From contig NZ_PEFL01000001.1 of the NCBI RefSeq assembly GCF_002754475.1, positions 682,001-746,000 of the forward strand: a stretch of DNA of 64,000 nt, in the 5' to 3' direction. Below, in pieces: positions 5,712-19,797 of this stretch; position 1 is the stretch's first letter, and each line of letters starts with the position of its first letter. The DNA is from Comamonas sp. 26. GTDB taxonomy: Bacteria; Pseudomonadota; Gammaproteobacteria; Burkholderiales; Burkholderiaceae_C. Under the pieces are notes generated by a model. That model saw nothing but the letters and a program-made list of their open reading frames with translations. It ran no database searches and was not told where the DNA came from. Both the position numbers and the translations under genes were made by a program.

Positions 5712-5787
5712 GCCGCAAGGCCCACCGCAAACCCTTTGGGCCATCTCGTGATGAGAGAGCCCTTGTCCCATAGCAGGAGGACTCGTT

Positions 5788-6836
5788 ATGTCCAAAACCA
5801 GTGTAGGCGCAGGCTCGGCCAACGCGCAATTCGTACAAGCTGCTGGACTGTTTGCTCAGTCGATGCAGCGCAATTCCAAGCTCAACCAGATGGTGGGCAC
5901 CATGCCCAAGGGCGAGGGCTCTGCCGCTGCGACCCTGCGCAAGCAGACCGCTACCGACATGCCCATCGTTCGCACGGTGGATCTGTCGCGCGGCAAGGGC
6001 GACGAGGTGGAGTTCCACTTTGTGCAGCCCGTGGGCGCATACCCCATCATGGGTGCCCGTATGACCACGCCGACTTTGACGCGATTACCGTCAATACCGT
6101 GCTGGCCCCCACCAAGAACCGCCATTACGTGGCAGACGGTGATGGCATCAAGGGCTTTACCGCCAATGCCGGTGAAATGGACATTGCTTCCACCGACATG
6201 CTGGGCATGAGCGTGGTGGACGCCTGCCGCACGCTGGTGGAGTCGATTGCTCTGCCACCTCCCGCGATTCGCCTGCCCGGTGACTCGGCGGCTGACGACT
6301 CCCCGCTGCGCATGCTGCTGGTGAGCCCCGCTCAGTACCACGCTTTCTCGCAGGACAAGGAATTCCGCCAGTTTCAGGCCAACGCGCTGACCCGCGCCAG
6401 CCAGGCCGAGCGCCATCCGCTGTTCCTGGGTGATGTGGGTCTGTGGAACGGCATTCTGATTGCCAAGCAGCCGCGCCCCATCCGCTTCTACGCGGGTGAT
6501 TCGCTGAACTACTGCGCCAGCAATACCAGCGATGCGGAAAGCACTTGCGTGGTGCCTGCCAGCTTTGGCGTGACCCATGCCGTGGACCGCGCGCTGCTGC
6601 TGGGTGGACAGGCTCTGGCCCAGGCCTTTGCTTCCAGCCGTCACGGTGGCATGCCCTTCTTCTGGAAGGAGAAGGAGTTCGACCACGACGACAAGATGGA
6701 GCTGCTGATTGGCGCCATTCAGGGCACGTCCAAGGTGCGCTGGGCCGTGGACCAGGGCAATAACACCAAGCACTTCACGGATCACGGTGTGATCGCCATC
6801 GACACCGCTGTGCCCATCATCGGCGCACGCCAGTAA
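5788..6836 (+). pseudogene. Major capsid protein, N4-gp56 family, frameshifted
   Basis: The gene starts at ATG 5788 behind AGGAGG, in the frame MSKTSVGAGSANAQFVQAAG. That frame runs to about PVGAYPIMGAR near 6060 and then goes astray, stopping at 6210. The rest continues in another frame from about 6062 (ADFDAITVNTV) to 6836, including NRHYVADGDGIKGFTANAGE and LGDVGLWNGILIAKQPRPIR, which fit the C-terminal part of N4-gp56/DUF4043 capsid proteins. The loop usually found after PxMG appears to be missing, so a small deletion with a frame change is more likely than a single-base error. The capsid protein cannot be made intact. Confidence 0.7.
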
Positions 6837-7947: not shown

Positions 7948-8622
7948 ATGAACCTTGAGGAACTGATTGCCTCCTTTCGGGAGGATGCAATGGACAAGAC
8001 CGAGCCCTACTTGTGGGGCGATGAGTCTGTGACGCGCTGGCTCAATGAAGCCCAGGACGAGGCGGCCATTCGCGGCCGTCTTCTGCTGGATGACAGCACG
8101 CCAGCCGTGACCACCATTGCGGTAGAGGCTGGCAAGGCCTCCTATCAGCTCCATTCCAAGGTTTATGAAATCGTCCATCTGCAGTGGACACCGAGCGCGG
8201 CCGCGCATCGAGCCCAGCCGGTGATTTTGGTGACGCGCGAGTGGCTGGACCGCAATCACCCGGACTGGCGCGTGCGCTTTGAGTGGGATGCGCTGTATGC
8301 CATCCAGACCGAGGGCGCGCTGCGGATGGTCCCCACGCCCCGTGAAGATGGGGTGCTGACGCTGGAGGCCTATCGCCTGCCCATGAAGGCCATGGCCAAT
8401 GACACGGACAAGCCCGAGATTCATGCGGCCAGCCATGCCTACTTGGTGTACTGGGCCTTGCACAAGGCATTCAGCCAGCCCGATAGCGATGGCTTTGACC
8501 CGCAGCGCGGCAAGACTGCCGAGGCGGCATTTACAGGCTACTTCGGGTTGCGGCCTGATTCCGACCTGCGCCGCGCGACTCGGCAGGATGTGCCCCAGGT
8601 CAACGTGAACTATATTTTCTGA
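7948..8622 (+). CDS. Putative head-tail adaptor protein
   Basis: The 224-residue protein has an N-terminal helical segment (LIASFREDAMDKTEPYLWGDESVTRWLNEAQDEAAIRG) typical of phage adaptor or head-completion proteins that sit under the portal ring. A beta-rich part follows, and then helices with KPEIHAASHAYLVYWALHKAF. The YLWGDESVTRWLNEAQDE pattern is shared with neck genes of podoviruses. The start is one base after the preceding stop, and the next gene begins 8 bp downstream, so it lies in a tight late operon. Confidence 0.6.
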   Translation: MNLEELIASFREDAMDKTEPYLWGDESVTRWLNEAQDEAAIRGRLLLDDSTPAVTTIAVEAGKASYQLHSKVYEIVHLQWTPSAAAHRAQPVILVTREWLDRNHPDWRVRFEWDALYAIQTEGALRMVPTPREDGVLTLEAYRLPMKAMANDTDKPEIHAASHAYLVYWALHKAFSQPDSDGFDPQRGKTAEAAFTGYFGLRPDSDLRRATRQDVPQVNVNYIF

Positions 8623-8630
8623 GGTGCCGC

Positions 8631-10268
8631 ATGTTCGGACTGTCCAAACCCCAACCTAAAGCCAAGGGCGCGGCCCTGGCCCAGGCGCAAAACCAGGCAC
8701 CTGACTCCATCCCCGGCATGTTCAAGCCGGGCGAGTTTGTTTTGCCGCCAGACACAGTGCACGCCATGGGCGGTAAGCAGGCACTTCAAGGTGTGGTGGA
8801 TGCCACTCACTCTCAAGTGCCTGTGCAAGTCGATGGCCAGGCGCAAGGCCTGGGGCTCAAGCCCGAGGTTTTCTTTGCCAATGGCGGCGCGCCAGAGGAC
8901 CAGCTCAAAGCGCCCATCAGCCCTTCCAATATTTATCCACAGGGCAGCCCAAGTGCTGGCGCTGGCATGAATCGCGGCCCTGGGATGCAGTTCGGCAGTA
9001 GCGGCCAGTTTGCCAAAGTGCCAAGCGGCATTGGTGGCAATCCAGCAGCGCCAGCGCGTCCCACGGCACAAGCGCCAGCCGCATCACCAGCGATAGCAGC
9101 CGCGCCAGCCATGGCACCCCCAGCCGCATCAGCACCGGTGGCTGCGCAAGCCCGCACAAGTCCCGGCATCTTCCCCGGCAACCGCCTGCAGGGGGATAGT
9201 GGCTTTTCTGGGGCACCTATCGCCCGGCCAGCTGCAGTAGCAGCGACCCAAGAACCAGGCGCTCAGCTCAAAGCGATTGCTGACAAGAATTCGCGTGGCG
9301 AGAGCTATGGCAACGACGCGCCCAATATGGCCAACCTGGGGCTGCAGTCTCCCAAGCCTGCCCAGGCGAGCGCGCCAGCCGCGCCCCCGGCTACTGGTGG
9401 CTTGTCTTACTCAGACAATATGCGCTCCATTGGTGACGACATTAAGCGCAGCTGGGGTGCTGGCAACTACGGTGAAGCCATTGGCAAGACCGTGGCAGGA
9501 ACTGTTGGCGGCATCACCACCCCCGTGATTGATGGCGTGGTCAATGGTGCCAGCGGTGTGTCGGGCTTTGCGCGCGGCTTGTTTGGCATGGAAAGCGACA
9601 GCAGCGCGGCTGCCGGCGTACCAGCGGCGGCATCATCGGCATCGCCCGCAGCCAATCGCGCAGCACCAGCGGGCTACACCCAGGCCAGCCAAGGTGTGAT
9701 GGGACCGCCCAGCCGTGCGGATCTGGCCGCTCAAGGCAAACAGGTAGATGCCAACCTGCAAACCATGGGCTTCAATACTGCGCTTGCCCGTGAGCGCATG
9801 GGCCAGCAAGGTGCCAACCAGCGCGCGGCCTTGGCCGAGTCCGGAGCAAGTGCCCGTGCCAATGGCCAGCTGGGTCTTGGATTGGGACGCCTGGCACTGG
9901 ATCAGAGTCGCGCCGGCAGCGAGGACCGACTGCGCGAGCCGCAGATTCGCGCGGCAGAGCGCATAGGGCAGATGCAGGAGGCGTACATCAATGCCGAGAC
10001 GCCAGAGCAAAAGGCCGCGATTGCAAGCCAGATGCGCGCCTATGGCGGTAAGGATGACGCTGATTGGAAGGTGCAGGTCACGCCTGCAACCAAAAACGTG
10101 GATGGGTCTACGTCAGCAGGGTCCATCATTCGCTGGAACACCCGAGATGGGGATGTTCAAGAGGTATCTGGTTCTCAGAGCAAACAGGAGTTTGTGAAGG
10201 GAACTGTGTACCAAGATGCCAAGGGCAATAAGCAGCGATGGAATGGAACCTCTTTTGAGTCCGTGTAA
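8631..10268 (+). CDS. Large Ala/Pro-rich phage structural protein
   Basis: This 545-residue protein has a conserved-looking N terminus (PDSIPGMFKPGEFVLPPDTV, then HAMGGKQALQGVVDATH). A long low-complexity Ala/Pro/Gly middle (about residues 130-350) follows, then a helical region (about 370-460) and a C-terminal block (KVQVTPATKNVDGSTSAGSI). The head block recurs in phage proteins related to tail or ejection apparatus. I infer a virion-internal or tail-associated role from position between neck genes and the giant polyvalent gene. The stop at 10268 directly abuts the opposite-strand gene at 10270, the left edge of a cargo island. Confidence 0.55.
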   Translation: MFGLSKPQPKAKGAALAQAQNQAPDSIPGMFKPGEFVLPPDTVHAMGGKQALQGVVDATHSQVPVQVDGQAQGLGLKPEVFFANGGAPEDQLKAPISPSNIYPQGSPSAGAGMNRGPGMQFGSSGQFAKVPSGIGGNPAAPARPTAQAPAASPAIAAAPAMAPPAASAPVAAQARTSPGIFPGNRLQGDSGFSGAPIARPAAVAATQEPGAQLKAIADKNSRGESYGNDAPNMANLGLQSPKPAQASAPAAPPATGGLSYSDNMRSIGDDIKRSWGAGNYGEAIGKTVAGTVGGITTPVIDGVVNGASGVSGFARGLFGMESDSSAAAGVPAAASSASPAANRAAPAGYTQASQGVMGPPSRADLAAQGKQVDANLQTMGFNTALARERMGQQGANQRAALAESGASARANGQLGLGLGRLALDQSRAGSEDRLREPQIRAAERIGQMQEAYINAETPEQKAAIASQMRAYGGKDDADWKVQVTPATKNVDGSTSAGSIIRWNTRDGDVQEVSGSQSKQEFVKGTVYQDAKGNKQRWNGTSFESV

Positions 10269-10269
10269 T

Positions 10270-10752
10270 TCAATTACTTACTGGGCGCGCGGTTGATGGA
10301 TCAAACTGATTTGGGGAAGAAGTCGGTTCATCAACGGGGCGCGCGGTTGTGGGGTCAAAGGCACTGCTTGCGGGTGAATCAAGTTTCCCATTGAATGGGA
10401 TCGACCCATTGTTTTGAGGTGGTTTGGGCGCTTGAGCTGCTGTTTTTTGAGTCCGGTTGCCGTTGAACTCAGCCCATTGTCCAAGCATGAATAGCCCGAG
10501 GCAGACCCATACAAGTATGAAAAAGCTCTTTGGCCAGGCGCGCTTGGCACGTTCTGTCAGGAACACCGCATAGAGTCCATAAGCTACAAGCCCCAGCACT
10601 ATGGGCCCGACCCAAGTGACGAGCCACATGCCGATTGCTTGTGAGTCGTAGTAAATCAGCGGATTGGCCAGAGCCACGATCCCCATGCCGATCAGGTGAC
10701 GGGCATATAAGAGTGGCGTTGGTGTCGCAGTTGAGGCTGTAGTTGCTTGCAT
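10270..10752 (-). CDS. Multi-pass membrane protein with FDPxTARPV C-terminal repeats
   Basis: The start at ATG 10752 has GGAGG 4 nt upstream, better than the in-frame ATG at 10833. The 160-residue product has about three membrane spans (near residues 20-40, 45-70, 80-100). Its polar tail carries FDPTTARPV and FDPSTARPV. The same motif (FDPKTAKPV) opens the giant phage protein at 13038. It is transcribed against the late operon. Possible roles include superinfection exclusion or membrane targeting of a phage component, but nothing in the sequence settles this. Confidence 0.55.
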   Translation of the reverse strand: MQATTASTATPTPLLYARHLIGMGIVALANPLIYYDSQAIGMWLVTWVGPIVLGLVAYGLYAVFLTERAKRAWPKSFFILVWVCLGLFMLGQWAEFNGNRTQKTAAQAPKPPQNNGSIPFNGKLDSPASSAFDPTTARPVDEPTSSPNQFDPSTARPVSN

Positions 10753-10819: not shown

Positions 10820-10854
10820 TTGTACTTTTGCAAAAATACTGTATAAAATTACAG
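10820..10854 (+). promoter_or_regulatory. Promoter with LexA (SOS) box for the DprA/PRTase pair
   Basis: CTGTATAAAATTACAG at 10839-10854 is a perfect CTGT-N8-ACAG LexA box, with a further T before it and AGT around it in the E. coli-like pattern TACTG-N10-CAGT. It overlaps a plausible -10 (TATAAA, 10842-10847), with a weak -35 TTGTAC (10820-10825) at 16 bp. LexA bound here would block RNA polymerase, so the pair should be induced by DNA damage. It lies 60 nt upstream of the DprA-like start. Confidence 0.75.
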
Positions 10855-10914
10855 TCTTCTGTGTGGTACTTTTGAACTAAGCTGTACTCAAATTTAGTAA
10901 GAAATGGGAAGAAA

Positions 10915-11799
10915 ATGGGCTGGGCAATTTCAGAATTCCTAGCGGAAAAGCCAATTGATATACGCGTCGAGCTAGGGGCGTATGAATTTCTTTGGCAACA
11001 AAAGGACGCCACCACAAAACGGTTGGCGGAGCTGTTTGATGCACATCCGGGGAAGCTACCCTCGGAACTTGTTGATGAAGACGACGCCTTGAAGGCCTCG
11101 GAAGAAGTGCTGAGCTTCTTCAGCAAAGGCGGGGTCTCGAATTTTGGTATTCGTATTAACGGCAGCCCAGACTATCCCGAGCGCTTGCGCGATGCTCCCT
11201 ATCCGGTGGAATTGCTGTATTTTTTGGGAACCTGGGAGCTGGCGGAGGCACCGCGTAGGGTTGCAGTAGTTGGAACTAGAGAGGTTAGTACGGAGGGGGC
11301 AAGTCGTACACGCAAGCTAGTTCGTCAGTTGGTCGAGAATGATTTCACAATCGTTTCCGGCCTCGCCAAGGGTGTTGATACCATCGCCCACGAGACTGCG
11401 ATCGCAGCTGGGGGGAGAACCGTGGCCGTAATTGGTACGCCAATTTCTGAGGTTTACCCCAAGGAGAATGCGTATCTCCAGCACAAGATTGCCCATGATT
11501 TTTTGTTAGTCAGCCAAGTTCCGGTCTTGCGTTACAAGGCGCAAGGGGCGCATATCAATCGTTTCTTTTTTCCTGAAAGAAACAAAACCATGTCTGCTTT
11601 GTCAGAGGCGACAATTATCGTTGAGGCGAGTGAAACATCGGGCACCTTAATTCAAGCGCGTGCTGCCCTAGAGCAAGGTCGAAAGCTGTTTATTTTGGAA
11701 AGCAATTTCCATAATCCTGCGATTTCTTGGCCTGCTAAGTACGAGGCCAAAGGAGCTATTCGAGTGAAGAGTGTTGAGGATATATTGAAAGAATTTTAA
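10915..11799 (+). CDS. DprA/Smf-like Rossmann protein of a DprA-PRTase two-gene system
   Basis: The 294-residue protein carries the DprA core: SPDYPERLRDAPYPVELLYF (84-103), RRVAVVGTREVSTEGASRT (114-132), TIVSGLAKGVDTIAHETAI (145-163), VAVIGTPISEVYPKEN (170-185), then FPERNKTMSALSEA and EASETSGTLIQARAALEQGR. DprA proteins bind single-stranded DNA and load RecA during transformation. This copy lacks the C-terminal winged-helix domain of housekeeping DprA. It is AT-rich, lies in a prophage behind an SOS box, and is followed after 5 bp by a phosphoribosyltransferase gene. That pairing matches the anti-phage toxin-antitoxin-like system I recall as ShosTA, in which the DprA-like protein is the antitoxin. 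Confidence 0.75.
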   Translation: MGWAISEFLAEKPIDIRVELGAYEFLWQQKDATTKRLAELFDAHPGKLPSELVDEDDALKASEEVLSFFSKGGVSNFGIRINGSPDYPERLRDAPYPVELLYFLGTWELAEAPRRVAVVGTREVSTEGASRTRKLVRQLVENDFTIVSGLAKGVDTIAHETAIAAGGRTVAVIGTPISEVYPKENAYLQHKIAHDFLLVSQVPVLRYKAQGAHINRFFFPERNKTMSALSEATIIVEASETSGTLIQARAALEQGRKLFILESNFHNPAISWPAKYEAKGAIRVKSVEDILKEF

Positions 11800-11804
11800 T
11801 AAGA

Positions 11805-12476
11805 ATGAATCTTCCGACTCGACTTACCAAAATTACCGATATTCAGATTGGTGATCATTCTTTTTTGAATGAATCTCATCAGTGTTTCTATTGGGGGGAG
11901 TACACCCCTTATAAAGGAGCTACATACTCTTCAACAAATCAGCTTATTATGAATTTGAAGAAGAAGATGGAGCGACGTGGTAAGCCTGATTGGCATTACA
12001 AAGCTGAGGCAATTGAGAACGTTGCACGTCAATTTTCCAGGCTTTGGAATTGGGGGGATGTGAACTCTAAATTTTCCTTGGTGGTGGTTCCAATGCCTTC
12101 GTCAAAGGCTAAAGCTGATCCTGAATATGACGATAGGATGATGCAGGTGCTCTGCCGTATTGGCACGCTTGTAAACGTGCCTTTAGATATACGGGACTGC
12201 TTATCGTTTGATGGATCTTGTCCTCCTAGTCATGGAGCCACTGAAAGGCCCAGTGTAGATAGGCTTTATGGGTCTATGTCTTTTAATAAGTATGCGACTG
12301 TTGAGCAAGGCCCTCCAAACATGATATTTTTGTTCGATGATGTTTTGACTTCGGGCGCACATTTTGTCGCCGCGTCGCGCGCTTTGAATGAAAATTATCC
12401 AGGCGCTCAAATCATTGGAAACTTTGTCGCGCGCCGTGCCTTGATTAATCCCTTTGAAAATACTGACGATTCTTAA
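11805..12476 (+). CDS. ComF-like phosphoribosyltransferase of the DprA-PRTase system
   Basis: The 223-residue protein has a type I phosphoribosyltransferase core: SLVVVPMPSSKAKADPEYDDR (about 91-111) and the PRPP-binding loop FLFDDVLTSGAHFVAAS (175-191), with the paired aspartates at 178-179. Such enzymes move a phosphoribosyl group, but ComF-like members lack a defined substrate. The start lies 5 bp after the DprA-like stop with no intervening terminator, and a strong terminator follows at 12523. In ShosTA-type pairs the PRTase is the toxic partner. That assignment is from memory and gene layout, not from any activity seen here. Confidence 0.7.
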   Translation: MNLPTRLTKITDIQIGDHSFLNESHQCFYWGEYTPYKGATYSSTNQLIMNLKKKMERRGKPDWHYKAEAIENVARQFSRLWNWGDVNSKFSLVVVPMPSSKAKADPEYDDRMMQVLCRIGTLVNVPLDIRDCLSFDGSCPPSHGATERPSVDRLYGSMSFNKYATVEQGPPNMIFLFDDVLTSGAHFVAASRALNENYPGAQIIGNFVARRALINPFENTDDS

Positions 12477-12522
12477 AAATCCTGTGAAGTCAAAGTATCT
12501 CAATTTTTTTGAGATGCAAACC

Positions 12523-12547
12523 AAGCCCGCCTAGTGCGGGCTTTTTT
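12523..12547 (+). terminator. Rho-independent terminator of the DprA/PRTase operon
   Basis: AAGCCCGC (12523-12530) pairs with GCGGGCTT (12536-12543), followed on the plus strand by TTTT. It isolates the two-gene cargo operon from the following genes. Confidence 0.85.
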
Positions 12548-12581: not shown

Positions 12582-12917
12582 TCAGGAGTGGAGGGTGCAG
12601 CGTCCCCCTTGATTCTCTGCCCACTCTTTGGGCGTCTCAACCGTGCTGAGGCCTGGCACTGTAGCTTTGCAGCGTGCGCCTTTTTGAGTGAAGCCAGAGC
12701 AGTAGACACGGTATTCGTCCTGATGCCACCCAAGGTAGTCTGACTTGCTTACCCCATAGTGCTTTGCAAGAAATCCAACGGGGTCCGCTGCGTACGCGAT
12801 TACTTCTTGCGCGCCGAGCAGGACTGTGCGCTGTCCTCCCGGCGCAGCATGGGAAACATAAAAGCCGACGTCCTTCTCAGCCAGTTCCTTGATCGCGCTT
12901 GCGAGGTGGTTGCTCAT
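12582..12917 (-). CDS. Small Cys-rich phage protein
   Basis: A 111-residue protein starts at ATG 12917. The first half (LASAIKELAEKDVGFYVSH, then VLLGAQEVIAYAADPVGFLAKHYGVS) is helical. The second half contains cysteines and a histidine in YCSGFTQKGARCKATVPG and GRCTLHS, spaced in a way that could bind a zinc ion. It is transcribed opposite to the late genes and forms the right edge of the cargo island holding the DprA/PRTase pair. No family is recognised. Confidence 0.5.
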   Translation of the reverse strand: MSNHLASAIKELAEKDVGFYVSHAAPGGQRTVLLGAQEVIAYAADPVGFLAKHYGVSKSDYLGWHQDEYRVYCSGFTQKGARCKATVPGLSTVETPKEWAENQGGRCTLHS

Positions 12918-12990
12918 GCATAAGCCTTTCTGTGGTGACTTGGATACTTGAATGGTATTGCAGCCGCGCTAGTGGATGGTTGCGCATGCC

Positions 12991-13007
12991 CCCCTCTAGG
13001 GTTCGAC
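12991..13007. repeat. 17-bp direct repeat, copy 1
   Basis: CCCCTCTAGGGTTCGAC occurs here, 31 bp before the giant phage gene, and again at 19876-19892, 32 bp before the next tail gene. Exact 17-mers upstream of two late genes suggest a phage promoter element or regulator site, or a recombination remnant. Confidence 0.55.
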
Positions 13008-13750
13008 CTGCAGTCAGGGGTGAGGTGTCATTGGGGGATGAGCAATGCATTCGACCCCAAAACGGCCAAGCCGGTTACATGCAGCAGCAGGGCAAGGCCC
13101 AGGGCTGGAGCAAAGACATGGTGGCCCAGCGCAATGCGCTGCAAAGCCAGCTGACCAAGCTGGAGGTGCAGTCGGCTGCAGGGCAGACACAAGGTGCATC
13201 GACCACTGGCACGCCAGCCCCCGCCCAGTTGAGCGGCATCACACAGATTCTGGCCAAGCAGATTCCCGCCATGAGCGAGCAGGAGCTGCAGCAGGCCATT
13301 GCCCATTACGGCCCCAATCACAAGCGCACGCAAAAACTGGAAAAAGCACTTCAGGCGCTTGCGCAGCAAACGCTAACAGCTATTGAAACAGGAGCTAATG
13401 CCAATGTCTCTCAAGCCTCTCAAGCCCAGCAAGGTAGCGCGCAACCTGCGCAAGCAACTCGAGCGCAAGCAACAGCGTCTGGCCCGTCTGCCGTAGGTGA
13501 AGCGGCGCGGATTGCCAAGGAAGGCAATGCCCAGCGCGAGCAAGACCGCCAGCGCCAGCTGGATGCCAGCGAACGCTGGATGCGCATGACCACGGTGGAG
13601 CGCCAGGCGATTACCCAGGCCAGCAAAGGTTTGAATGCCCCGCAGCGTGCAAATGTGCACAAAGCTGCCTGGGGCGACCTGTCGGAGAAGGTGCGCGCCA
13701 AGCTGGCCGATGCCATGGGCAATCAAACAGCCGTGGCCGGTAAAGATGCA

Positions 13751-13800
13751 GGAAATCAACCGCTAGCGCTTGTCAATAAAGCGCAAGTAGCTACTGAATC
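13751..13800. repeat. Short interspersed repeat, copy 2 (inside a gene)
   Basis: The segment reads AAATCAACCGCTAGCGCTTG then TCAATAAAGCGCAAGTAGCT, close to the copies in intergenic DNA at 2780 and 55991. Here it is translated in frame within the giant phage protein (about NQPLALVNKAQVATESV). A shorter related piece lies at 13368-13392. Confidence 0.5.
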
Positions 13801-14670
13801 TGTAGCAAATCCGTCAACCGGTCAAACACCCGTCAAACAGGCCGCGCAGCCGGTGGGCGATGAAAAACCGTTCGCGCCGGAGACCGGCACGCTGGGCATC
13901 CCTCGCGCTGACATGCCCCAGGTGCCCACGGCCAACCATGGCGGCATGGTCAAGCACCTGAATGCCCAAGGCATCGCTCACGAGACCACCATGGTGGACG
14001 CGGCAGCGCTCAAGCCCACGCAGGCTGAGTATTCGCCCGCCAAGGTCGAGGCTGCCAAGAGCGCGACTGGCGACCGTGCGGTGATTGTGTCCAGCGATGG
14101 CCACATCATTGACGGCCACCACCAGGCAGTCGCTGCAGCCGAGGAAGGCAAGCAGGTCAAGGCCATCGTGCTGGATGCACCGGTGGAGCAGGCGTTGGCA
14201 GCGGTGAAGGCTTCGCCCAGTGCGAATGCCGCGCCGGCATCAGCACCGGCAACCGAGCCCACGCCTGCACCTGCACCAAAGTCGGTACCGCAGCGCATGA
14301 AGGAGGCCAAGGCTGCGAAGGATGAAGCTGCGGCGTCCAAGCGCGTGGCAAAGCCCAAGAGCATTCCAGCCAAGATGCGCGAAGCCATGGCCGCGCGCGC
14401 CGACTATTTCACGCCTGGCAATATCGTGAAGGGTTACAGCGGTCATGACCGTGTGATTGCCTATACCACTCGGGATTCTCACGGCGGCTGGAGTGTGACG
14501 GTGCAGGCTGTTCGCAAGCAGGGTGATGGCTGGGTGAATGAAGCGAATGAGGGGCCGCGCACCCATACCACTCAACCCACGGCACGCGACCTCAAGGCGG
14601 GGCCGGTGGAGCGAGGCATTGATGTGCTGGGCAGAGAGGACGAGCTGCCATTCAGCCGCAGCACATTAGA

Positions 14671-15262
14671 GGCGCCACAAACCGATCAGGAAAAGGCTCT
14701 GGTTTTGCAGGGTGCGCCGGTTGCCGAAGTGGACACTGCCATTGCGCCGATGGGGGCACCTGCGATTCGCAGTTGGGCGACAGACTTGTTTGAGCAGCAG
14801 GGCGGAAAGGCGCACAACCCAGCGTTGGGCGATGTGATGCTAGACGGGCGATCAGTGCGCAGTTCGCTTGCTCATGGTCGTCCTAACGCTCACAAGGTAG
14901 CGGCTTTTGCTGCGGTCAAGGATGTGCTGGAGAAGGGTGCTGTGGTGCTCTCGGCTAGGCATGGCCGCGATGGTGACAGCTTCTATGTGAGCGCGCCAGT
15001 CAAAGTCGGCGGGGCTATCAATATAGTGACCGTGTTGGTCAAGCGAGACCCCAATGACCAGCGGATGTACTTGCATAGCGTGGCCACAAAAGAATATCTC
15101 CTGAACCGCCGAGTTTCCAGGACTGACACCACTAGTGGTGTGGAGCGATCTGGCTCAAACGATTCAGGAGACGCCTCTACTTTAGCAAAGCAAAGAGATG
15201 TGGGCAAGGCCTCGACCGAGGAAGTGGCAGATGAGCTGCATCGCCTGTTGACCTTGAATGCG
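14671..15262 (+). repeat. Duplicated LPD3-like domain, unit 1
   Basis: The unit runs from EAPQTDQEKALVLQGAPVAE through LFEQQGGKA, SFYVSAPVKV, VTVLVKRDPNDQRMYLHSV and RLLTLN. Unit 2 at 16086 repeats the same order of blocks. The fold is probably related to the polyvalent-protein domains of the BECR RNase superfamily; this is from memory of the family. Confidence 0.55.
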
Positions 15263-16085
15263 GGAGAACGGGCAGATAACGCATCGACAACGGCGCGCTT
15301 CCGCCGCGAAGCCGCAGACACCGCGACGGGCGCGGACTTTGATGTAGCCAGCTTCCTGCAAATCATGAACGAGGGGCAGCCAGCCAGCGCCGCAGCTGCT
15401 GCAGCCCCGGCGATGAACGTGCGCCCCAGCTACTCATCTGCAGCTCGTGCGGAGGCTGTGCGCGCCGTGACGGGCACGGCTGATGCCATTCGTCAGGCCT
15501 GGGCCAACGGTCCCGAGGTGATCGTTGCCTTTGACATGCAAGACCCTGTGGTGCCCGAGAGCGCGCGCCGTGCGGACTTGAAGCAACGCAGCGGCGGTGC
15601 CCGTGGCGCGCCGGAAGGCTTCTATTACCAGGGCAAGGTGTATCTGATGGCGTCCAAGCTCAAGACGCCCAATGACGCTGCCCGCGTGCTGTTTCATGAG
15701 GCGCTGGGCCACCATGGTCTGCGCGGCCTGTTTGGTAAGGAGCTGGACCAGATCCTGAACCAGGTGGCCAACATGCGTGAAAAGGAGGTGGACGCCAAGA
15801 TCAGTGAATACGGACTGCGCGGCGTCAGCAAGCTTGATCGCCGCACGGCCGCTGAAGAAGTCTTGGCCGAGATGGCGCAGAGCACGCCCCAGATTGGCTT
15901 TGTGCGCCGTGCCGTGGCCGCCATTCGTACCTGGCTGCGCACCCATGTGCCGGGTTTCAAATCTCTGGCCCTGACTGATGCCGAGCTGATCCGCAACTAC
16001 ATCCTGCCGGCGCGCGCCTGGGTGGAGAACGGCGGTGCTGCTGGCAATCTGAATGGGGTTGCTTCGTTCAGTCGTGACTCGCGTG

Positions 16086-16674
16086 AAGCACCTCAGACCG
16101 ATCTGGAAAAGGCGCTTGTGCTGCAGGGTGCGCCGGTGGCGGTCCTGGATTTGAAGAACGCGCCATCAGGGGGATATGCCGCAGTGGAGCGATGGGCGGC
16201 GGACCTCTTTGCCCAGCAGGGAGGTAAAGCCATCAGCCCGGAATTTGGTGAGGTGCTTCTGGATGCGCGCTCTGCAAAAAGCTCGGTAGCGCATGGCGGT
16301 GCCAACGATGCCAAGAAGGTGGCATTTGCAGCGGTCAAGGATGTGATTGAGCGTGGTGCGCTGGTGTATCGGACCACAGCGGGTAATACCGATAGCTTTT
16401 ACTCTTCCGCGCCGGTGAGTATTTCAGGCAAGGACAACATCGTGACGGTTCTGGTTCGCCGCGACCACAACACGCAGCGGATGTACCTGCATAGTGTTTC
16501 GCTCAAAGAAAATCTCCTGAAGCCGAGAGTATCCAGTGTTGATGCCAATAAGGCATCCGAACGGTCTGGCTCAACGAGTTCAGGAGAAGTCTCTACTTTA
16601 GCAAATGGTGTGCAGCAGGGCAAGGTGGCCACTGAAGATGTTGCGCGCGAACTCAACCGCCTGCTGACTCTGGA
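16086..16674 (+). repeat. Duplicated LPD3-like domain, unit 2
   Basis: This second unit begins EAPQTDLEKALVLQGAPVAV and shares LFAQQGGKA, SFYSSAPVSI, VTVLVRRDHNTQRMYLHSV and RLLTLD with unit 1. Many differences have accumulated, so the duplication is old or the units came from different phages. Confidence 0.55.
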
Positions 16675-17970
16675 TACCAGTTCAACGCAGGATGGTGCAG
16701 GCGAGCCCATGTTCAGCCGCTCCCGCTTCATGGACCTCAAGGATAGTGCCCTGGATCAGCTGAGCCAGACTTTCACCCACGAGGGCAAGGTATCGCTTTG
16801 GGATAAATCCGTGGGCACCATGCGCCATCTGGGCGAGCGCGCGCCAGCCTTCAAGCCGGTTTACGAGGCAGCAAGCCAGAACATTGAAGATGTTTCCATG
16901 CTGGCCAACGATGCGGCCGATGCCGCACCGCGCCTGATCCCCCGTGTGGAAAGCCTGCGCGACATGCTGGGCAAGGATCGCAAAAAGCCGGTTTCTGCGG
17001 CCGACAACAAGGCCGTGGGCAAACCGCTGTTCGAGGGCACGCTGATCTGGGGGCGCGACGAGAACGGTAAGGCGACCTTGGTGGAGGATCTGCAAAAGCG
17101 CCATGCCAACCTCTCGGTGCACAACAAGGCGGCCATGCTGCTCAAGCAGGGAAAGATTGATTCGGGTGTGCTGGCCATGTGGCAGGGCAAGCCTTTGGAG
17201 CAATTTGAGAAGCTGATTGACTCTCGTTTTGAGAGCGTGTTTCTCAAGCCCGGTATTGTCTGGAGTGATACCGAGCTGCAATCTCTGTTTGGCGCCAACG
17301 CCAACCAGATCAGCCTGTACCGCGAAGCGCGCGCGGCCATTGATCGCTCCATCGACATGACGGCACGCACTGACATGCTGCGCGTGGTGGGCGAGAAGTA
17401 CGAGGCCATGCGCGATGCCGTGCTGGGCCAGCCATCCGTCGAAGCTGCTGCCCAGCTGCTGCTCGATACCCTGGAGCAGGACGCCAAGGCCGACCCGGAC
17501 TCACGCGACCGCCTGGGCGAGTACATGCAGCAGATCAAGCGCCGCATGGAAACGGCCACGGATCTGCAAAAGGCGGGCTATGCCCCTCTGTCGCGCTTTG
17601 GGCGCTACACGGTGGATGTGGTGGATGCCAATGGCGAGCGCCAGTATTTTGGGATGTACGAAACCGCGCGCGATTCCAACTTGGCCAAGATGCAGCTGGC
17701 GCAGGAATTCAAGGGCGCGACCATCACCACCGGCACCATGAGTGCCCAGACGCGCTGTTCCGCAAGGACGAGGCTGCGGTGAAGCGGGTGCGCGAGCGCC
17801 TGGCGGACTGGAACCGCGATAACCCAGAGCAGCCTATCGTGGTGAAGATGCCGGATGTGTGGAAGAAGGTGCGTGAGATGGGCAAGGACCGCACCCAGCG
17901 GATCGCGGATACGGCGCCCAAGGCGCTTAGGGCGCAAATGAGGGAGGAAGCGGCTGCGTTGCGGAGCTGA

Positions 17971-18315
17971 GAGTGGCCGGCCGTGGGGCCGGTTGCGACC
18001 CTTTGGAGTCCTTAAACCTCATCGTGTGGATGTGTTTTTTCTAGTTAAAATTCTTGCGATGGCTGCTCTTGCTCACTTCACGCAACAACCGGTTGATTAC
18101 CGGGGCGCAGCCCTGCCTCGCGGACGCTTCCGCTCCGTCACTCCGCCCTAATCTGGGCACCAGCGCAGCAAGAACGCTTTACTTCTTGCCCCACCTGTTC
18201 GTCTTGCCTGTAGCTAGAGCTATAGGCTTGCTCGCGTTTTCATTGCGCCTACTCCTGCCCTTCATGCAGGTTGCTTTGGTGCGTTCTGCCCCTCTATGCT
18301 GAGGGTGGTATACCT
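17971..18315. other. Non-coding junction between phage and SulP cargo
   Basis: No credible gene is seen here. CCGGCC (17978-17983) and GGCCGG (17987-17992) form a hairpin just after the giant gene. Another imperfect hairpin lies at 18208-18229 (GCCTGTAGCT and AGCTATAGGC). Composition changes from the GC-rich phage toward the SulP gene at about 18000-18050, so the left boundary of the inserted cargo is probably there. I found no clear terminal inverted repeats, target duplication or attC-like core. Confidence 0.4.
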
Positions 18316-19797
18316 ATGTCTATTGAAAAAATCAGAACCGTATGGTTCTCTAATGTCCGTGGCGATTTGCTGGCGGGCGTCGTTGTTGCCTTGGCACTTA
18401 TTCCGGAGGCCATTGCTTTTTCCATCATTGCTGGCGTTGACCCCAAGGTGGGTCTGTATGCCTCCTTTGCGATTGCCACACTTATTGCTTTTGTTGGCGG
18501 GCGGCCTGGCATGATTTCAGCCGCTACCGGCGCTATGGCCTTAGTGATGGTGACGCTGGTAAAAGAGCATGGACTGGACTATTTGCTAGCTGCCACCATT
18601 CTTGCTGGTGTGCTCCAAATGCTGGCAGGCTTCTTACGCTTGGGCCAGCTCATGCAGTTTGTCTCTCGTTCCGTGGTGACGGGCTTTGTGAATGCATTGG
18701 CCATATTGATTTTTATGGCTCAACTGCCGGAGCTGACCAATGTCACTTGGCATGTCTATGCGATGACGGCTGCAGGGCTTGCCATCATTTATGGCTTGCC
18801 CTACATCACCAAAGCCGTTCCTTCGCCTTTGGTTGCCATCATTGTTTTAAGCATCGCTTATGTGGTTCTCGGTCTAGACATTCGCACGGTTGGCGATATG
18901 GGCGCACTCCCTGATAGCCTGCCGAGCTTCTTCATTCCCAATGTCCCCTTCACTTGGGAGACGCTCCAAATCATCCTGCCGTATTCCGCCACCCTGTGTG
19001 TCGTGGGCCTGCTGGAATCGCTCATGACGGCCACCATCGTGGATGACATGACAGACACTACGAGTAACAAAGACCGTGAATGCGTCGGCCAAGGTATCGC
19101 CAACGTTGCTACAGGTTTTGTGGGTGGTATGGCCGGATGCGCCATGATTGGTCAGTCGGTCATTAACGTGAAGTCTGGGGGGCGTGGGCGTTTGTCTACG
19201 CTGACCGCAGGTGTAGTGTTGCTGATACTGGTTGTGTTTCTTGGCGATTTGGTGAAGCAGATTCCCATGGCCGCCTTGGTCGCCGTGATGATCATGGTGT
19301 CGATTGGCACCTTCAACTGGCGCTCTATCAAGGACTTGGTTGCCCACCCCAAAACATCCAGCGTTGTGATGCTCGCTACCGTCGTTGTGACTGTTGCAAC
19401 CCATGACTTGGCCAAGGGAGTGCTGACTGGCGTTCTTCTGTCTGGTGTGTTCTTTGCACACAAGGTGCGCCGTATTTTGGATGTCACCTCAAGCCTCAGC
19501 CCAGACGGTAAACAACGTACCTATTTTGTTTCTGGGCAAGTATTTTTTGCCTCTTCTGAAAGCTTCATTGCTAGGTTTGACTACCTTGAACCGGTGGAGT
19601 ACATCTGTATTGATGTGAGCCAGACTCAGTTTTGGGATTTGACCTCAGTTGAGGCACTTGACCGGGTAGTGTTCAAACTACGACGCGGCGGAACAAAGGT
19701 CGAAGTGCGAGGGCTAGATGCAAGAAGTGCCAAGTTGGTCGAACAGTTCGCCGTTTATCCAAAAAGTGAAAGCACTAGCTACGTAAAACTTCATTAA
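18316..19797 (+). CDS. SulP-family inorganic anion transporter with STAS domain
   Basis: From ATG 18316 the protein has 493 residues. It opens with [20 protein letters not shown], then [16 protein letters not shown] and GAMALVM, the typical SulP start. About 10 to 12 membrane spans follow up to residue 385, and a cytoplasmic STAS domain occupies the C terminus ([20 protein letters not shown]). SulP proteins carry sulfate, bicarbonate or related anions, and the STAS domain is regulatory. The substrate is not evident, though sulfur metabolism nearby is notable. Codon use is lower in GC than the phage genes on both sides. The gene interrupts the late operon, so it is an acquired cargo gene. Confidence 0.85.

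Follow-up and report, generated by a model that had tools for sequence, protein, structure and literature searches.

The locus described here raises the question of whether a defence gene pair carried in a prophage is placed under the SOS response of its host, and what such control would achieve. In the 64-kb stretch of DNA analysed (the window), shosA (10915-11799, + strand) encodes a DprA-like antitoxin or sensor of 294 amino acids and shosT (11805-12476, + strand) a phosphoribosyltransferase (PRTase) toxin of 223 amino acids; the antitoxin gene comes first and the gap between the two is 5 bp. A preliminary description of this DNA had pointed out both reading frames as a DprA-like and a PRTase gene, and had named ShosTA as the matching system. 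Both frames were found, and profile searches place the first in ShosA (PADLOC PDLC03961, 343.8 bits, E 2.1e-103) and the second in ShosT (PADLOC PDLC03962, 155.1 bits, E 6.8e-46). By this profile placement of both proteins, the prophage pair is a member of the ShosTA family. Among the 118 clusters of ShosA relatives described below, a ShosT homologue lies directly behind ShosA in 103.

Pfam analysis of ShosA displays the DprA domain (PF02481, 197.8 bits) together with a weak SLOG match, and TIGR00732 (dprA) scores 179.5, under its cut-off of 191.15. The PF02481 core is shared with housekeeping DprA/Smf. However, the winged helix PF17782, which is present in the housekeeping DprA encoded on a separate contig of the host, is absent from the prophage ShosA in the Pfam search, in agreement with the preliminary description. 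For the 223 amino acids of ShosT, Pfam displays no domain match and thus no helicase match. An AlphaFold model of ShosT, computed from a 29-row alignment (pLDDT 89.5), finds 8zvd (ShosT with phosphate) as best match in Foldseek (E 4.2e-5, TMq 0.52), and its closest solved folds are 8zvd ShosT and 7p0h ComF. The PRPP loop reads LFDDVLTSGAH, with D178, D179, T182 and G184 invariant in the 29 rows. The pair looks like a separate, short sub-type of ShosTA, since the ShosT entries of the PDB are 393-424 amino acids long, the solved ShosA 9vzo matches the prophage ShosA with just 75.3 bits, and the second PADLOC model of ShosA reaches 75.5 bits.

Comparison with described systems displays likenesses at several levels. 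The DprA and PRTase pair of a P2-like phage is reported to protect E. coli from T7 and lambda (PMC9122126); both proteins match those of the prophage, as does the order of ShosA and then ShosT, and a mobile-element setting is common. The E. coli plasmid copies of ShosTA (L135, L136) are without a LexA box, whereas the prophage pair has one. In RqlHI and PsyrTA a DprA-like partner likewise restrains a PRTase domain, and RqlH is reported to induce SOS through this domain unless restrained by the DprA-like RqlI (PMC4670107). However, the PRTase of RqlH is fused to a RecQ-like helicase, which the prophage ShosT lacks, and the PsyrA profile matches the prophage ShosA with just 97.4 bits. A toxin gene is tied to SOS in the same manner in tisB/istR-1 (PMC12626290) and in the higBA genes of IncC (PMC8265657), as far as these papers describe them, but the proteins are unrelated and not ShosTA. 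AbpAB is described as activated by DNA damage or phage SSB with RecA and LexA not needed (PMC10732053), whereas the link of the prophage pair is a LexA box in the promoter; the same paper names ShosTA among the systems tied to phage SSB. ShosTA as such is already known, and SOS-boxed ShosTA is new: no account of SOS control of ShosTA was found in the open-access literature searched, and the literature examined states nothing on how ShosTA is switched on.

The prophage setting claimed earlier is real. The host genome comprises 4.7 Mb on 3 contigs. A tyrosine integrase gene (L273:11826-13016) lies behind a tRNA-Ser (cga) at L273:11566, and the window holds phage genes, which encode a large polyvalent protein, a major head protein (5736-6836) and an adaptor of the SU10 type (7948-8622). 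The pair also has the lower GC content ascribed to it, with 0.50 for shosA and 0.43 for shosT versus 0.61-0.62 in the phage genes at 7948-8622, 8631-10268 and 12899-17782. At the sulfate permease gene found by Pfam at 18271, the DNA looks like that of the host again. No direct repeat of at least 12 nucleotides that could mark att sites was found between L273:11401-12000 and window positions 17501-18400, and the window holds no second tRNA-Ser end. A PHROGs scan of 16 frames of the window, those of ShosA and ShosT included, displayed no terminase or portal. The LPD3 polyvalent protein (12899-17782) partially matches a PHROG of 3431 positions, and its frame is lost near 17.78 kb (~17760-17970). 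As no terminase or portal was seen and the frame of the polyvalent protein is lost, the prophage may be defective. Within the genus, ShosA occurs in 1 of 53 genomes, namely this host; in 51 others the match does not exceed 119.3 bits, a score in line with housekeeping DprA, and one displays no match. A third gene shared by ShosA loci was considered and rejected, as the flanking frames of 158 and 111 amino acids recur in just 1 and 3 other loci, respectively. The prophage further carries an rdgC gene (983-1924, - strand; PF04381, 351.9 bits), and the host has two more full-length rdgC genes and fragments. The RdgC family antagonizes RecA filaments.

The LexA box reported earlier is confirmed by motif scan. 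It reads CTGTATAAAATTACAG (10839-10854, no strand assigned), lies 60 bp upstream of shosA and is the sole CTGT-N8-ACAG of the window. Chance alone would yield about one match of this form in 64 kb (mean 0.83), so the presence of the box alone is no proof; its weight comes from its position, from the host's own sites and from its recurrence in relatives. As to position, the best promoter candidate on the + strand (10820-10847) consists of a weak -35 element TTGTAC (10820-10825, 3/6 matches), a 16-bp spacer and a -10 element TATAAA (10842-10847, 5/6 matches), the latter inside the box, as had been proposed. No + strand promoter site scores 9/12. The terminator that had also been ascribed to the operon corresponds to a terminator-like hairpin with a T run (12523-12543, + strand); such structures are overall no commoner in the scanned region than chance predicts (4 found, 3.5 expected), but this one has 8 pairs, 6 of them G-C. 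A divergent promoter across the box was rejected, being at chance level. A divergent gene for a membrane-protein-like product of 158 amino acids (10270-10746, - strand) adjoins the box and could share the operator; a 39% relative is found at the box-positive locus L252.

The host genome itself displays 17 strand matches to CTGTAT-N6-ACAG at 14 places, and none to the reversed pattern. These places include one 27 bp before lexA, one before the gene of an S24 protease (UmuD-like) and one between AlkZ-like and DUF6882 genes. Eight of the 14 fall within some long frame, the S24 place among them if the longest frame is taken, and hence not all host matches are operators. The box before shosTA is of the same type as the one at the host lexA. 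Host LexA-type boxes also lie just upstream of frames without Pfam match at L122, L126 and L119, which are candidate SOS genes on this sequence evidence.

Recurrence was analysed in 160 ShosA loci gathered from genomes, viral contigs, and phage and plasmid records. Of these, 153 are usable (at least 150 bp upstream and at least 220 amino acids) and form 118 clusters at 90% protein identity. Before this count, loci in which no ShosA hit reached 150 bits and E 1e-20 had been left out (L041, L047, L050, L051, L053, L064, L067, L146, L192), as had housekeeping loci, copies of the window's locus, and L018, in which ShosA lies at the end of the contig. Each of two motifs, CTGT-N8-ACAG and GTTC-N7-GTTC (the latter on either strand), is present within 150 bp upstream in 13 of the 118 cluster representatives; when any cluster member is counted, the numbers are 14 and 13. 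For both motifs, other spacings from 4 to 12 are found in 0 or 1 of the 118. Dinucleotide shuffling (300 rounds) yields means of 0.14 for CTGT and 0.40 for GTTC, with maxima of 2 and 3. Other genes with free upstream DNA at the same loci display the motifs in 4 and 7 of 748 cases (Fisher 4.5e-9 and 1.0e-7), or in 4 and 10 of 1165 if the free-upstream condition is dropped. Upstream of housekeeping dprA an exact box of either type is found in 0 of 56, whereas the prophage shosA has one. A chance origin of the boxes was rejected on these controls of spacing, shuffling, other genes and housekeeping dprA. Palindromes of the form GAAC-N4-GTTC, a Gram-positive-type box, were rejected as a further class (2 of 118). 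Such palindromes stand before shosA at L010 (-42) and L063 (-46), loci that lack a LexA box, and are possibly another operator.

An alignment of the upstream regions of 14 relatively near loci supports the same view. Ten share an island close to TRCTGTATATNNNNACAGT, the remainder of the regions having diverged, and in these ten no island other than the LexA box is clearly conserved. The island is missing in L006, L010 and L012 of this alignment, and L007 (near copy L190) displays a seemingly decayed box at its position. In L008, L011, L003, L034 and L004 the promoter-like arrangement ATGACA/CTGACA-17-TATATT places the -10 element TATATT inside the box, at the same place as in the window, and LexA would thus cover the -10 there. 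A -35 element with at least 4 matches accompanies 6 of 25 box-bearing rows (0.24 vs 0.11 at other positions); the window, with its 3/6, is not among them. Among complete pairs, with ShosT directly behind ShosA, 13 carry the CTGT and 12 the GTTC box, in total 25 of 103 with an exact box in 150 bp. The expectation that the box be conserved in homologues is therefore borne out far beyond chance, but for about a quarter only: SOS wiring of ShosTA is not universal.

The type of box follows the class of the host. CTGT-N8-ACAG is found in 8 of 17 betaproteobacterial clusters (10 with one mismatch) and GTTC-N7-GTTC in none of them, versus 0 and 5, respectively, of 12 alphaproteobacterial clusters (Fisher 0.0008 for the 8 against the 5), the class of part of the genomes being the search group of origin. 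In one of the 8 betaproteobacterial box clusters (L061 and L254), the viral L254 carries the box and L061 does not; in the other 7 it stands in a member with a named host or named phage, or in the window. The 30 remaining named-host clusters hold no CTGT box and one GTTC box: gammaproteobacterial clusters, E. coli and Enterobacter copies included, have CTGT in 0 and GTTC in 1 of 9, and other classes have neither type in 21. The 59 clusters without assigned class, nearly all viral (L065 and L066 included), hold 6 CTGT and 7 GTTC boxes. The one gammaproteobacterial match, at the Enterobacter plasmids L137 and L138 and the viral L219, is included in the 13 given above. Gammaproteobacterial LexA is not known to read GTTC-N7-GTTC, and hence this match is probably due to chance or another regulator.

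Alphaproteobacterial LexA is described as reading GTTC/GAAC repeats (PMC6473078). Of 22 genomes searched for lexA, 6 gave no hit. Where alphaproteobacterial genomes gave one, GTTC-N7-GTTC stood no more than ~110 bp from the lexA domain in 7 of 8, and CTGT-N8-ACAG lay within this distance in 4 of 4 betaproteobacterial ones. Five hosts carry the same type before ShosTA and lexA (the window's, G815/L009, G354/L062, G1144/L181 and G817/L015), while in eight others lexA has a box but ShosTA lacks an exact one (G1868, G1687, G725, G816, G814, G985, G1089, G1133). From these operator sequences, control by SOS appears to be a trait of ShosTA that recurs and is matched to the host. A quick tree was built from the 108 ShosA rows with at least 48% identity to the window. 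On it the box labels require at least 16 changes, and no fewer than 8 changes of the CTGT label and 4 of the GTTC label are forced by branches with good support. Rows with CTGT lie in clades with mostly betaproteobacterial named members, with L229 as exception; rows with GTTC lie in clades with alphaproteobacterial members or with viral rows alone, the exception being L137 among enterobacterial ones. From this distribution and the forced changes, repeated gains and losses of the wiring are likely, in keeping with the host.

The pair, its gene order, its box, the same box type at the host lexA and host-matched recurrence in part of the Beta- and Alphaproteobacteria are directly established. On this basis we consider it probable, though far from assured, that LexA represses the prophage ShosTA, and that DNA damage or phage single-stranded DNA raises the pair, arming an abortive response to phages. 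LexA at the -10 would block RNA polymerase, RecA filaments on single-stranded DNA would cleave LexA, and antitoxin and toxin would rise together upon DNA damage or phage replication, arming those cells where ShosA may encounter DNA structures of the phage. Because they rise together, SOS alone would arm the system rather than fire it. The preliminary description had linked SOS control to release of the toxin, which does not follow from a shared operon. According to a review of Pu et al. 2025 (PMC12593503), ShosT interferes with purine metabolism and the outcome is filamentation, DNA duplications and death, ShosA is said to bind DNA, to oppose ShosT and likely to promote homologous recombination, and T7 Gp0.7 is a named trigger of ShosTA. 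Gp0.7 is not a DNA-damage signal, and hence SOS need not belong to sensing. A phage-specific signal acting on the DNA-binding ShosA might free ShosT, which would then disturb purine nucleotides and halt the cell. Since DNA damage is reported for PRTases of the ShosT type and SOS induction for the related RqlH, released ShosT might also induce SOS and so drive the promoter from which it is expressed. The switch would then amplify itself, and ShosA would act as its brake. We put forward as a tentative hypothesis, more doubtful than the arming model, that SOS-wired ShosTA acts as a suicide switch: damage by infection would lower LexA, the pair would rise, and freed ShosT would damage DNA and keep LexA down, committing the cell irreversibly unless ShosA repairs in time; the wiring would have re-evolved with whichever LexA operator the host reads.

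Other explanations of the box have to be weighed against the arming model. SOS might raise the pair in cells undergoing induction of their resident prophages, so that ShosT slows the cell and dampens the induction of a rival or its own prophage, sparing the lysogen. The SOS-controlled toxin TisB is reported to lower prophage induction in Salmonella (PMC12626290), the pair studied here resides in a prophage, and ShosA relatives are encoded at 80 loci on viral contigs. However, exact boxes precede complete pairs in 15 of 51 phage or viral clusters versus 10 of the 52 that have no viral listing (chromosomal loci among the latter may include prophages), and four rhizobial and Sphingobium plasmids carry the box before ShosTA, copies that a brake by itself leaves unexplained. 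The trait does not simply track the prophage life cycle, given boxes at non-viral-listed loci and plasmids. SOS control as a prophage-only trait was accordingly rejected; of the claim of an SOS-controlled defence in a prophage, the box is real, but the control is not peculiar to prophages. An induction brake appears unlikely on this evidence.

Another reading would put repair in the first place, with ShosA as recombination mediator for damaged DNA, ShosT held in check and defence secondary. It accords with the DNA binding and recombination ascribed to ShosA (PMC12593503) and with an in silico LexA site reported for the chromosomal dprA of Dinoroseobacter (PMC6473078). The lack of any exact box among the 56 housekeeping dprA genes, of which 3 display CTGT-N8-ACAG with one mismatch, speaks against it, as does ShosT, which has likely been kept active as an enzyme because its PRPP loop is invariant; we regard this reading as quite improbable. 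Least of all do we expect the box to be incidental and the pair constitutive or driven by another signal. The chance frequency of the motif in 64 kb and the three quarters of complete pairs without an exact box would allow for it, but the specific spacing, the controls, the host matching and the upstream footprint argue to the contrary. With the arming model, a host-matched LexA box before one defence family, at viral, plasmid and other loci of two classes, would make the promoter the point at which abortive defence is coupled to the DNA-damage response. This raises the questions of whether SOS arms cells for immunity to phages whose single-stranded DNA is exposed, and whether a DNA-damaging toxin under LexA forms a positive loop.

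Further observations were made on other ShosTA loci. In E. coli, the ShosTA query is matched in 687 of 5426 genomes, with over 80% of the query covered in just 41; among 30 records listed, 20 match only the 3' part of shosT, beside an annotated IS30 transposase. A second ShosT-profile match beside the first is strong at G028:C38:4603-6292 (160 bits) and weak at G354:C22:48485-49707 (56 bits) and G389:C9:41330-42561 (45 bits). Two rhizobial plasmids (L140:5514-8669 and L142:5514-8670) carry genes for a second DprA-like protein, a second PRTase and a serine protease, convergent to ShosTA.
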